Of a stretch of DNA of 64,000 bases, positions 38,957 to 43,489 are shown one piece after another. The notes under the pieces are model-generated. The model made no database searches. It was not told the origin of the DNA and saw nothing but the letters and a program-made list of their open reading frames with translations. Positions within the stretch are counted from its first letter, which is position 1. Every line of letters starts with the position of its first letter. The position numbers and the translations under genes are program-made. Source of the stretch: Celeribacter sp. HF31 (GTDB taxonomy: Bacteria; Pseudomonadota; Alphaproteobacteria; Rhodobacterales; Rhodobacteraceae); contig NZ_JAATOT010000001.1 in assembly GCF_011806455.1 (NCBI RefSeq), positions 310,001 through 374,000 on the forward strand, in the 5' to 3' direction.

Positions 38957-40333
38957 TCACGCGGCGTGGGAGCCCAGGGTCACCTGATTGCGCCCCTCGG
39001 CCTTGGCGGCATAAAGCGCGCGGTCGGCGATCTCCAGAAGCGTATCGATGTCATGCGCCTCCGCGCCGCCCATGGCCAGACCGATGGAGGCGGAGACCGC
39101 CACCGGCGTGCCATCGGACGCAATGGTGGCCGGGCGGGCACAGATCGCGGCCCGCAGGCGTTCCGCCACAGCGCGCGCCTCCATCAGCGTCGTCATCGGC
39201 ATACAGACCAGAAACTCCTCGCCGCCAAAGCGCGCCAGCAAATCCATGCTGCGCAGGCTGTCGCTCAACCGTTTCGCCACATCGATCAGCACCGCATCGC
39301 CCGTGGCATGACCATAGGTGTCGTTGACCGATTTGAACTTGTCGATGTCCAGAAGCATCACGGCGAAATGCTGATGATTGTCGCGCGCGTCGCGGGCGAG
39401 TTTTGCCAGATGAGGCATGGCGTAATGGCGATTGTAGAGCCCGGTCAGCTTGTCGCGGGTGGCCAAACGCAACCCCTCGTCGAGCGTCATCTTCAACAGA
39501 TCGGCCTCTTTTTTGCGCCGCATCTGGGTGCGCAGGCGCAGGGCCATTTCCTCGGGGTCTGCGCCGCGGGTGATCAGGTCATTGGCGCCGAGATCGAGCG
39601 CCATGAGGGCCTCGCGCCGATCCTGCGGACCGTGCACGACGACGATCCCGGCGCTGCGGGTCGCTTCACGCGCGCGCAGATCGGAGATCAGCCGCAAACC
39701 TTCGCTCGACCCACCGGCCTGTGCGGAAATCACATACAGATCGGCCACCTTGCCATGGTAAATCGATTCCAACAGATGATCGGCCCGCTCGATGGCAATC
39801 TCGTCATGCACCATGCCCTTGAGCCCCGCACGCCAGGTCATCGCCTCCTCGGAGGTGGAGCCGATGAGGGCGATTTTGCCAGGGGTGGCGTAGTGGCTCG
39901 CGGCCTCGGAAAAGCCCAGGGCATGCGCGGTTTCGTTGCGGCGGCGCAGCTCTTCGGAGGTGGCGGAGGCGCGCATGAGGGCACGCACCCGCGCGGTCAG
40001 GGTCAATTCATCGAGCGGTTTCGACAGGAATTCATCGGCGCCGGCCTTGAGTGCGGCAATCTTGGCTTCAGGCTTTTGCGCGGGCGTGATGATGGCGACG
40101 GGAATATGCGCAGTGAGCGGATCGGCTTTGAGCGCGGAGCAGGCGTCATACCCACTCATATCGCCGAGATCGCCGTCGAGGATGATGAGGTTGGGACGCG
40201 CTTCGCGCGCGAGGCGGAGGGCGTCCTGGCCGGTTGAGGCCTGTGTCACATCGTAGAAGGCCGAAGAGAGTTTGACCTTCAGGATGATCCGATTGGTCGG
40301 CACATTGTCAGCGATGAGAATCCTGCCTGCCAT
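38957..40333 (-). CDS. pleD: PleD-type response regulator / diguanylate cyclase
   Basis: The 458-residue protein follows PleD exactly: an N-terminal receiver (about 4-120; phospho-acceptor Asp in LIILDGDLGDMSG), a second adaptor receiver (about 155-275) and a C-terminal GGDEF domain with active site GGEEF. An inhibitory I-site RxxD (RSMD) lies five residues before it. Phosphorylation-driven dimerisation makes c-di-GMP. DUF3572 is divergent from it, a common alphaproteobacterial neighbourhood. Confidence 0.95.
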   Translation of the reverse strand: MAGRILIADNVPTNRIILKVKLSSAFYDVTQASTGQDALRLAREARPNLIILDGDLGDMSGYDACSALKADPLTAHIPVAIITPAQKPEAKIAALKAGADEFLSKPLDELTLTARVRALMRASATSEELRRRNETAHALGFSEAASHYATPGKIALIGSTSEEAMTWRAGLKGMVHDEIAIERADHLLESIYHGKVADLYVISAQAGGSSEGLRLISDLRAREATRSAGIVVVHGPQDRREALMALDLGANDLITRGADPEEMALRLRTQMRRKKEADLLKMTLDEGLRLATRDKLTGLYNRHYAMPHLAKLARDARDNHQHFAVMLLDIDKFKSVNDTYGHATGDAVLIDVAKRLSDSLRSMDLLARFGGEEFLVCMPMTTLMEARAVAERLRAAICARPATIASDGTPVAVSASIGLAMGGAEAHDIDTLLEIADRALYAAKAEGRNQVTLGSHAA

Positions 40334-40537
40334 ATCTGTTGCGCGTCCTCTGTAACGGGTCTGCCGGGCTCTTTGGGCCCGGGGGCGGGGGACGCAGCCT
40401 GTGTCTGCGGTGCCCGTCTTGCTTGACCACTGGGTCTGATGTGTTGCGGTCTGTTGTATTTCTGCTGTTGCATATGGTTAAGAATGTCGGTGACAAAGGT
40501 TAAGAAACCGTTTCCAAAACCCAGGGGTTATCCACAG

Positions 40538-40816
40538 ATGCAGCAAGAATCCGCCGAGTTGATCGGCCTGAAAGTTCTGGCCTGGCTCGCCGCAGAAGAA
40601 GAAATTTTCCCTGTTTTTCTGGGGGCTAGCGGGATCTCCACGCAGGAATTGATGGCGCGGGCCTCGGAAAGCGAGATCCTGAGCGCCGTTCTCGATTTCG
40701 TAACCATGGATGACGAATGGGTGAAAGCCTGTTGCCAGTCCACGGGGCTCGATCCGCATGACCCGATGCGCGCGCGACAGGCGCTTCCGGGTGGCGCGCA
40801 AATTCACTGGACCTGA
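40538..40816 (+). CDS. DUF3572 protein
   Basis: A 92-residue soluble helical protein (MQQESAELIGLKVLAWLAAE at the N-terminus) matching DUF3572, a small alphaproteobacterial family regularly next to pleD. Function unknown. The start is ATG 40538; the frame is open 33 codons upstream but that part has no coding character. It lies 12 bp before the HAD gene and probably forms an operon with it. Confidence 0.88.
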   Translation: MQQESAELIGLKVLAWLAAEEEIFPVFLGASGISTQELMARASESEILSAVLDFVTMDDEWVKACCQSTGLDPHDPMRARQALPGGAQIHWT

Positions 40817-40828
40817 GGCGTGTCGTTG

Positions 40829-41536
40829 GTGCGTAAGATAGAGGCGATCCTGTTCGACAAGGACGGCACGCTGATGGATTTCCAACGCAGTTGGGGACCC
40901 TGGGGCGCGGCTGTGATCGAACGCCGTTGTGGGCCGGACAGGTCCAAAAGGCTCGCCCTTGCAGAGGCGCTTGGCATCGACCTTGAGGCAAAGCGCTTCT
41001 TGCCGCAAAGCGCCGTGATCGCGGGCACGCCCGACGAGGTTGTCACCCTGTTGCAGCCGTTTTTCCCGACCAGTAGCGCGGAGGAAATCACTGGCTGGCT
41101 GGAACCAGATGCGGAGAATTTCGCGCCGGTGCCTGTGCCGGGCGTCATCGAGTGCTGCGCGGCGTTTCGGGCGCAGGGGCTGGGTTTGGCGGTGGTCACC
41201 AATGATTTCGAAGTGGCAGCGCGGGATCATCTCTCGCAGATGGGATTGGATGCGCTCTTTGATGTGGTGATTGGCTATGACAGTGGCTATGGCGGCAAAC
41301 CTGCGCCGGGGCCCTGTCTGGGGGCCGCGGAACGCCTTGGAGTGGCGCCCGAGGCCTGTGTCATGGTGGGAGATAGCCTGCACGATCTGGAGGCGGCGCG
41401 GCGCGCGGGGATGACCCCGGTCGCGGTGCTCACGGGCGTGGCACCCGCCGATGAACTGGCGGACCATGCGGTGGTGGTCCTGGACAGTGTCGCCGACCTG
41501 CCAGCGTGGCTGTCTGACGGCAACATCGGGGGCTGA
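40829..41536 (+). CDS. HAD-family phosphatase (Gph-like)
   Basis: A 235-residue hydrolase of the HAD superfamily: motif I LFDKDGTLMDF with the nucleophilic Asp, motif II VVTND, motif III lysine in GGKPAPGP and motif IV MVGDSLHDLEAA. The cap region resembles phosphoglycolate-phosphatase-like enzymes. The start is uncertain: GTG 40829 with TGAGG 10 bp upstream is preferred over GTG 40820. Confidence 0.88.
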   Translation: MRKIEAILFDKDGTLMDFQRSWGPWGAAVIERRCGPDRSKRLALAEALGIDLEAKRFLPQSAVIAGTPDEVVTLLQPFFPTSSAEEITGWLEPDAENFAPVPVPGVIECCAAFRAQGLGLAVVTNDFEVAARDHLSQMGLDALFDVVIGYDSGYGGKPAPGPCLGAAERLGVAPEACVMVGDSLHDLEAARRAGMTPVAVLTGVAPADELADHAVVVLDSVADLPAWLSDGNIGG

Positions 41537-41677
41537 AAACCGCCGCTTTCCGGGCCGGTTTTCGAGAGACTAAAAACAATTTTAGGAGTTTATCGAAGCC
41601 GTTCCGGCGGCAATTGGTAATTTCTTAAGAGTGGCCCGTTACACCTCCCGCATGTGAACGTGGGAGGCATGTCGACC

Positions 41678-42277
41678 ATGCATGGTATGATTAACCGGGC
41701 GATCCAATGCTTTATGCGCGACACCTATGGTGCGGACACCTGGGAAAAAGTCGCGGAAAAGGCTGATCTCGGGTTCGACAATTTCGAGGCGATGCTTAGC
41801 TATCCGGACCAGATCACCCTGGATGTCCTGGGGCGTGCCGCGCGTCAGTTGCACAAGCCTGTGGAAACCTTCCTCGAAGACCTCGGCACCTATCTCGTCT
41901 CCCACCCGAATGTCGAGGCGATCCGACGCCTGCTGCGGTTCGGAGGCGAAAACTTTACGGAATTTCTATTTTCTCTCAACGAATTGGAAGGGCGCGCGCA
42001 ACTTGCATTGCCGGATCTCGAGGTGCCGACACTGAAGGTCGAACATATAGAAGACGGTCGGTTCCGTCTCAGTTGTTCCAGCGCGATGCCCGGCTTTGGC
42101 TATGCGATGGTGGGTGTGATGCGGGCGATGGCGGATGATTACGGTGCCTTGGTGTTCCTCGAACATCAGGGCTGGATGGATTCTGGCGAGGAAATCATCA
42201 CCATCAACCTGTTGGAGGCGGCCTATACCGAAGGGCGCAGTTTCGAACTGTCCGAGCGGATCGGGGGTGAGCTGTGA
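41678..42277 (+). CDS. H-NOX-like (haem NO-binding domain) protein lacking the haem ligand
   Basis: A 199-residue protein with the H-NOX start (MHGMINRAIQCFMRDTYG) and overall length of the family. Comparison with canonical H-NOX shows that the proximal haem-ligating His (H102 in the Thermoanaerobacter protein) is E104 here (FSLNELEGRAQLALP), and the porphyrin-binding YxSxR motif is degenerate (C133-S-S-A-M137). Haem binding is therefore doubtful. It overlaps the HNOBA-GGDEF gene by 4 bp (GTGA), so the two form a sensor/output pair. The start is ATG 41678 with GGGAGG 10 bp upstream. Confidence 0.88.
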   Translation: MHGMINRAIQCFMRDTYGADTWEKVAEKADLGFDNFEAMLSYPDQITLDVLGRAARQLHKPVETFLEDLGTYLVSHPNVEAIRRLLRFGGENFTEFLFSLNELEGRAQLALPDLEVPTLKVEHIEDGRFRLSCSSAMPGFGYAMVGVMRAMADDYGALVFLEHQGWMDSGEEIITINLLEAAYTEGRSFELSERIGGEL

Positions 42278-43302
42278 CCGTAGTCAGACCCGTCACCTTC
42301 GATGCCGCGCCATTTCTGGCCTTCATGCCGATGAGTCTGGTTTTTGCGGATTCAGGCGTGATCCTGTCGATTGGGCCGACCTTGGCCAAACTGCGTCCGG
42401 CGGAAGAGATGATTGGCAAACATGTGACGGAGGTCTTTACCGTGCGCGACGACGGTCGCGGGCAGGGCAATGGCCCCATCCCTCTGGATACGAAACTCTA
42501 TTTGAAATTTCGGGAAGGGGTGACCACGCGCCTCAAAGGGATGGCGGCCTCGATTCCGGGCACGGGCGTGAACATTCTGAACCTGTCCTTCGGCATCTCC
42601 ATCGTCGATGCGGTTGCCGATTACCGGCTCACCGCCGGGGATTTTGCGCATACCGATCTGGCCATCGAGATGCTTTATCTGGTTGAAGCCAAATCTGCCG
42701 TCATGGAAGAAACCAAACAGCTGAACGCGCGCTTGCAAGGTGCCAAAGTCGCCGCAGAAGAACAGGCTTTCACCGACACTCTCACGGGGCTCAAGAACCG
42801 CCGCGCAATGGACCATGTTCTCGAGCGGATGCTACGGACCAATGTGCCCTTTGCGTTGATGCATCTCGATCTGGATTACTTCAAATCTGTCAATGACACG
42901 CTGGGCCATGCTGCGGGCGATACCGTGCTCCAGGCGGTCGCCAAAATCCTCATGGAAGAAACACGGTCCGATGATCTGGTGGCCCGTGTGGGGGGCGATG
43001 AGTTTATTCTCATCTACAACCGTTTCACGGATCACACCCGTCTGGTGCAGACCGCGCAACGCATCATTTCACGCCTTGAGGTGCCAGTGCCTTATCAGGA
43101 CACCTTCTGTAAAATTTCCGGGTCTATCGGCATCACCACAACCGACTATTACAAAGTGCCGACGGCCGACGGCATGATCCATGACGCGGACCTCGCGCTT
43201 TATAGCTCGAAATACGAAGGACGCGCACAAGCCACCCTGTTTGACCCGGCCGTGCATCATGACAACGCGGTTGCTTACGATGCTTCGCAAGACAAGAGAT
43301 GA
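42274..43302 (+). CDS. HNOBA-GGDEF diguanylate cyclase, partner of the H-NOX-like protein
   Basis: A 342-residue cytoplasmic protein. Residues about 10-140 match the HNOBA domain otherwise known from H-NOX-linked kinases and soluble guanylyl cyclase (SLVFADSGVILSIGPTLAKL), then a coiled-coil signalling helix (about 145-170, MEETKQLNARL), then a GGDEF domain with intact GGDEF and the I-site RSDD five residues upstream. It should make c-di-GMP under control of the coupled H-NOX-like protein. The start is GTG 42274. Confidence 0.9.
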   Translation: MTVVRPVTFDAAPFLAFMPMSLVFADSGVILSIGPTLAKLRPAEEMIGKHVTEVFTVRDDGRGQGNGPIPLDTKLYLKFREGVTTRLKGMAASIPGTGVNILNLSFGISIVDAVADYRLTAGDFAHTDLAIEMLYLVEAKSAVMEETKQLNARLQGAKVAAEEQAFTDTLTGLKNRRAMDHVLERMLRTNVPFALMHLDLDYFKSVNDTLGHAAGDTVLQAVAKILMEETRSDDLVARVGGDEFILIYNRFTDHTRLVQTAQRIISRLEVPVPYQDTFCKISGSIGITTTDYYKVPTADGMIHDADLALYSSKYEGRAQATLFDPAVHHDNAVAYDASQDKR

Positions 43303-43393: not shown

Positions 43394-43489
43394 CGCGCTC
43401 ACACCAAGCGCGGTCCGTTCGTCTATCGGTTAGGACGCCAGGTTTTCAACCTGGAAAGAGGGGTTCGATTCCCCTACGGACTGCCACTT
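43378..43489 (+). repeat. 112-bp inverted repeat, left copy (tRNA-Glu with its -10 region)
   Basis: These 112 bp are identical, in opposite orientation, to 49518-49629. The repeat covers the -10 region, leader, complete tRNA-Glu and three bases after the CCA. Both arms lie at the ends of the 6-kb singlet-oxygen gene cluster and can pair or recombine. Confidence 0.95.
43412..43486 (+). tRNA. tRNA-Glu(TTC)
   Basis: A 75-nt tRNA with encoded CCA: acceptor stem GGTCCGT/ACGGACT, anticodon TTC in the loop of CAGGTTTTCAACCTG, and T arm GGGGTTCGATTCCCC. It is identical to the copy on the minus strand at 49521-49595. Confidence 0.97.

Follow-up and report, generated by a model that had tools for sequence, protein, structure and literature searches.

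The closest described relatives of the gene pair reported here are Rhodobacteraceae H-NOX proteins, which a 2022 review places in a 'Group 5' with the proximal histidine in fewer than 10% of members, proline in most and no conserved cysteine (PMC8738867); the review raises the question of how Group 5 senses NO or anything else (Biosci Rep 2022). In Paracoccus denitrificans, the H-NOX, like that of R. sphaeroides, was reported in 2017 to lack the proximal histidine; an hnoX mutant underproduced biofilm, a double cyclase mutant overproduced it, and the model drawn from these mutants has H-NOX inhibiting the cyclase DgcA, with NO as the trigger (PMC5588039). In the main text of another hnox deletion study of P. 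denitrificans, a search for 'histidine' found nothing (PMC12582929). A review counts the H-NOX of Dinoroseobacter shibae among the haem-based NO sensors (PMC8846402), and its NO-bound form is reported to inhibit the cyclase Dgc1 (PMC7232146 and PMC8846402). The Rhodobacter capsulatus cyclase gene is reported to be CtrA-regulated and to affect the gene transfer agent and motility (PMC7232146 and PMC9143464).

A deposited record names such a protein haem NO-binding, and the R. capsulatus and P. denitrificans papers treat theirs as NO sensors in the parts cited (PMC7232146 and PMC5588039). In the sequences, the usual haem site is absent from most members, and the member listed with haem and NO data lies in the histidine-bearing minority. 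At stake is the use that many members of the family make of this c-di-GMP switch. Histidine loss in P. denitrificans (2017, PMC5588039) and the group-wide state (2022, PMC8738867) are already in print; what we add is the variability of Glu104, the selection on the gene, a history in which proline looks ancestral and histidine is scattered, and a shared upstream element, TT-N9-TTAA, with no claim that these are absent from print, our searches having covered a collection of open-access papers.

The window (the whole stretch of DNA analysed, 64,000 nucleotides from Celeribacter sp. HF31) carries an H-NOX gene and a diguanylate cyclase gene that overlap by GTGA, as a first-pass annotation of the sequence had noticed (Table 1). 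The H-NOX matched Pfam HNOB at 92.6 bits, well over the cut-off of 25.5, and the nearest named relatives found were Celeribacter, with C. naphthalenivorans at 98%. No second HNOB match, which might have paired with this one in the manner of soluble guanylyl cyclase alpha and beta, was found in the same genome (96.29% complete). On the 5' side of the pair, 38957-41536 holds genes for a PleD-like REC-REC-GGDEF protein (minus strand), a DUF3572 protein and a HAD hydrolase; flanks fetched for the 141 clampless loci described below held HAD matches in 71 and DUF3572 in 60, so that the neighbourhood is partly conserved. Just 3' of the cyclase is a tRNA-Glu gene (anticodon ttc) at 43412-43486. A 120 kb plasmid of Phaeobacter sp. 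G2 also carries an H-NOX/GGDEF pair, there downstream of HAD and trimethylamine methyltransferase genes (L212).

Table 1 Features of the H-NOX/cyclase locus, in window positions
Feature	Position	Strand	Basis
Predicted promoter element TTGG-N7-TTAAG, CtrA-like, first half-site changed	41614..41629	+	Motif of the clampless set
H-NOX (HNOB) protein without haem motif, 199 aa	41678..42277	+	Pfam HNOB, model matches, omega
Glu104 codon, position of the proximal haem ligand	41987..41989	+	Aligned to H105 of Nostoc H-NOX
C133-S-S135-A-M137 replacing the YxSxR porphyrin clamp	42074..42088	+	Aligned to Y134/S136/R138 of Nostoc H-NOX
Diguanylate cyclase of the pair (342 aa); from the N terminus, a region matching HNOBA below threshold, a long helix and the GGDEF domain	42274..43302	+	
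GGDEF domain, residues 165-318	42766..43227	+	Pfam 135.6 bits
I-site RxxD (R231-D234)	42964..42975	+	Both residues the same in all 59 aligned cyclases
GGDEF signature, residues 240-244	42991..43005	+	Invariant in 59 aligned cyclases

The first-pass annotation had compared the protein with that of Thermoanaerobacter and read a glutamate at the proximal histidine position and C-S-S-A-M in place of the YxSxR clamp. Our reference was the solved Nostoc H-NOX, and the reading held: phmmer (E about 1e-21) set E104 opposite Nostoc H105, and C133, S135 and M137 opposite Y134, S136 and R138 (a CxSxM clamp), in a printed alignment that is gap-free after window residue 31. Three other histidines had been named as possible ligands, and all of them (H59, H76 and H123) lie off the proximal column. 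An AlphaFold model built with an alignment of 60 clampless sequences (mean pLDDT 89.2) placed E104 within helix 93-110, and its best PDB matches were Nostoc H-NOX (TM 0.78-0.79 by query, 0.81-0.85 by target). From the alignment and the model with its Nostoc matches, no other histidine occupies the proximal place. Both the proximal histidine and the YxSxR clamp that mark a haem-binding, NO-sensing H-NOX are missing, and NO sensing by a His-ligated haem is accordingly unlikely for this protein on its sequence.

Losing these motifs is not special to the window protein, as the first reading might suggest. Each of the 20 genus-group genomes had an HNOB match, as did 105 of 150 genomes drawn evenly from the family. 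The family sample gave 121 matches, from which three fragments (in two loci; L053, L170 and L172) were left out of the locus counts, leaving 118 usable loci: 99 without the clamp ('clampless') and 19 with it. The proximal histidine was absent from 91 of the 99 clampless loci, with proline as the usual substitute (Pro 72, His 8, Gln, Asn and Ala 3 each, Glu, Thr, Arg and Gly 2 each, Asp and Lys 1 each); among the 19 clamp-type loci it was present in 18, the other having Gln. In the fragment L172 (genome G050) and on contig 2 of genome G242, HNOB matches come as two neighbouring pieces at a single place, which may reflect gene breakage or faulty assembly. In a class-wide sample HNOB was matched in 13 of 289 genomes, and 8 of the 13 lie outside the family: seven scored at least 106 bits, with His and YSR present, and the eighth (L207) reached 56.7 bits with Pfam and gave no match to our own H-NOX profile.

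What accompanies the clampless H-NOX is nearly constant. A same-strand cyclase adjoins it in 161 of 162 loci, which include repeats of genes fetched twice, and in 140 of 141 tree tips (L168 falls outside the distance rule though its cyclase frame overlaps, and L073 is cut by a contig end); a same-strand cyclase adjoins 8 of 42 haem-type loci. Five haem-type neighbours scanned were three hybrid histidine kinases and two GGDEF-EAL proteins. Two haem-type H-NOX genes (L173 and L174) stand beside a large GGDEF-type frame; the neighbour of L173 is a GGDEF-EAL protein whose HNOBA match, at 26 bits, passes the Pfam cut-off, which makes this pair a haem-bearing equivalent of that in the window.

The partner in the window has the signature and the I-site of a diguanylate cyclase predicted to be active, and the earlier reading of both motifs as intact is borne out by their invariance in the 59 aligned cyclases, the window's own among them. 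Across the cyclase frames of clampless loci, GGDEF was found at the first regular-expression match in 151 of 161 and the I-site pattern in 156 of 161. The HNOBA label once given to the N-terminal region is weak, since its 19.3 bits fall under the Pfam cut-off of 23.4; HNOBA was matched by 36 of the 59 partner cyclases at E up to 0.01 (best 1.2e-7), and a fold search with the partner returned PAS-GGDEF and GGDEF structures on top, without singling out HNOBA.

Trees were made from 183 sequences with the four motif columns removed, both by quick searches (L144, L171, the genus-group repeats L025-L036, 8 identical rows and the fragments were dropped). The 42 haem-type sequences, which include two imperfect clamps (YHR and YSE) and one Gln for His, separated from the 141 clampless ones with SH-aLRT 90 under LG and 99 under a mixture model. 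On the haem-type side, L070 has an intact YSR clamp with Gln at the proximal position. When the divergent P. denitrificans protein was added it fell on the clampless side of the same split, with support of only 45; because of this drop, a single origin of the clampless set is likely but not proven.

Proline was the commonest proximal residue of the 141 clampless tips (Pro 86, Glu 17, His 12, Gln 8, Asn, Ala and Arg 3 each, Lys, Thr and Ser 2 each, Val, Asp and Gly 1 each). Glu104 is not fixed even inside the genus group, in which Glu is found at 17 of 20 clampless loci and Val, Lys and Gln at one apiece; the alignment check proposed with the first-pass annotation thus fails to find a clade-wide glutamate. 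Parsimony on the LG tree put Pro at the base (33 steps versus 35 for the next residue), in a two-state count non-His was ahead of His as the basal state by 10 to 12, and a two-rate model gave non-His versus His as 0.83 to 0.17. A model that starts from His and allows losses alone, with one rate fewer, fitted worse by 2.7 log units. These reconstructions favour, without proving, an ancestral Pro with His regained in scattered tips rather than repeatedly lost. One of the 12 clampless His tips, L111, is from D. shibae (3001 bases of plasmid pDSHI01 are found in the genome at 100%); C, W and R stand at its clamp positions, so that YxSxR is absent, and it alone among the 12 has Arg at the third.

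Constraint at the haem site differs between the two types. Among the 166 columns of the haem type, ranked from the least variable, the proximal and three clamp columns stand at 9, 6, 10 and 11; among the 172 of the clampless set they stand at 104, 96, 143 and 166, the proximal one being more variable than the median column. Conversely, E67, D68, L85, F88 and L158 are 96-99% conserved in the clampless set and variable in the haem type, a comparison that does not extend to the C-terminal part because the haem-type rows were trimmed there. In the genus group, 26 of 66 H-NOX pairs gave a median omega of 0.090, and 41 of 66 cyclase pairs (with readings that start some codons after the start) one of 0.145, the other pairs being undefined or beyond the dS limits. 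Such values indicate strong purifying selection on H-NOX.

The clampless loci also have an upstream element in common. TT-N9-TTAA occurred within the 100 bases before the start codon in 112 of 141 clampless loci, compared with a mean of 3.8 and a maximum of 10 in 100 block shuffles, which overstate independence because the upstream rows are related; its TTAA lies mostly 40-60 bases ahead of the start. It was found in 3-4 of 42 haem-type loci, by choice of start, their upstream regions being those ahead of the earliest ATG or GTG in the frame, which may be misplaced. The form TTGG-N7-TTAA was present in 46 of 141 clampless loci (shuffled maximum 2) and 0 of 42 haem-type loci. Exact TTAA-N7-TTAA was absent from the 100 bases upstream in all 141 clampless loci; when 300 bases were searched, both strands included, one of the 141 had it, or 27 if a single mismatch was tolerated, versus a shuffled mean of 5.4. 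The element looks like a CtrA site with an altered first half. A regulon of the strict box was rejected, its two other matches in the Celeribacter genome being at neither place a clear promoter. CtrA control has been reported for homologous genes of D. shibae and R. capsulatus (PMC7232146 and PMC9143464); the predicted CtrA site named for D. shibae in the part of the paper cited belongs to dgc2, with none given there for hnox or dgc1 (PMC6473078).

The best explanation, which we consider probable though only just, is that the haem-free H-NOX is a dedicated regulatory subunit of the cyclase of its own operon, with an input other than NO at a His-ligated haem. It draws on the retained fold, the loss of histidine and clamp, the constant pairing with an intact cyclase, the purifying selection and the common promoter element, all read from sequence. 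By analogy with P. denitrificans genetics and with D. shibae, the H-NOX would bind its partner cyclase directly and mainly restrain it, and inhibition rather than activation is what we infer for the window protein; the P. denitrificans mutants, as reported, are compatible with H-NOX inhibiting DgcA (PMC5588039). The input might be either another ligand or a protein contact, moving the same hinge; alternatively there may be no ligand, with control exerted through expression from the CtrA-like promoter. The main points against a strictly haem-free reading are the D. shibae haem report and the NO model of the P. denitrificans authors.

That a different small molecule, such as a lipid, an iron-free tetrapyrrole or another hydrophobic metabolite, sits in the old haem cavity is an unlikely but serious alternative. 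At 16 positions that presumably line the pocket, the four motif columns among them, most clampless residues are hydrophobic and their average size is below that of the haem type, so that the cavity is not filled and may still hold something; purifying selection also agrees with a bound ligand. Against this, the proximal and clamp columns vary within the clampless set, so that no common new polar site is visible. Glu104 itself was rejected as a new metal or cofactor ligand, since genus-group relatives have V, K or Q there. The first-pass suggestion of an input other than NO, or of another cofactor, survives to the extent that NO sensing by a His-ligated haem is unlikely; that Glu104 would mark a different cofactor is not supported.

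Less probable again is that haem is still bound and NO sensed through weak or unusual ligation, with water or some other axial ligand in place of the His. The fold has been retained, as has Pro118, the P. denitrificans authors assume NO control of their His-less protein (PMC5588039), and the D. shibae orthologue, also clampless, is listed as a haem NO sensor inhibiting Dgc1. The last point means that loss of the motifs alone cannot exclude haem, and makes too strong the first-pass statement that both histidine and clamp are needed for it. However, D. shibae has the proximal His and the Arg at the third clamp position, and the window protein has neither. Nor was there any sign of His going together with NO-forming nitrite reductases: 6 of 11 His genomes (of the 12 His tips, L045 was left out) had nirK or a cytochrome d1 protein, versus 20 of 40 non-His genomes chosen from the sample; the d1 profile, PF02239, also covers related d1-type proteins.

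A cysteine redox sensor, like the Vibrio cholerae H-NOX with its reported haem-free redox function (PMC7108781), seems very improbable: C133 stands at the clamp Tyr place, where Cys is the commonest residue (85 of 141), but C11 and C133 are the only cysteines of the window H-NOX, which makes a cysteine/zinc site of the V. cholerae kind unlikely, and Group 5 is described as having no conserved Cys (PMC8738867). A decaying gene without function, to which the loss of the defining haem residues might point, is scarcely credible with an open frame, a median omega as low as that of the genus group and HNOB in every genome of that group.

Beyond the regulatory-subunit explanation, we suggest tentatively, as a history that has some chance of being right, that in the Rhodobacteraceae haem was lost once, that the H-NOX became a CtrA-timed cyclase subunit, and that a few lineages, D. 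shibae among them, regained His and NO sensing. If so, the D. shibae NO sensor would be an exception, and the claims of NO sensing made for most of the rest would be mistaken.

Set beside the known systems, the window pair fits the published Rhodobacteraceae Group 5, to which it probably belongs: like that group, the clampless set mostly lacks His (present in 12 of 141) and most often has Pro (86 of 141), although the window protein has Glu, as do most loci of its genus group. The P. denitrificans pair Pden_3719/3720 (H-NOX/DgcA) likewise overlaps and is reported without the proximal His; its H-NOX is 40.8% identical to the window protein over 96%, with Pro and A-S-Q (strain HAMBI_2443) in place of Glu and C-S-M. 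R. capsulatus rcc02630/rcc02629, judged from the strains fetched, shares the tree side and the pair, but has Gln at the proximal position (L048 and L049; strains SP108 and DSM 1710). Haem-type H-NOX proteins with a histidine kinase or GGDEF-EAL partner (for example L002 and L173) share the fold family with the window protein, yet keep His and YxSxR intact, and their partners are mostly not a plain cyclase. D. shibae H-NOX/Dgc1 lies on the same side of the tree, forms the same gene pair, has TTGG-N7-TTAAG upstream (found by eye), and differs from the window in its proximal His, its one clamp Arg and its reported response to NO.
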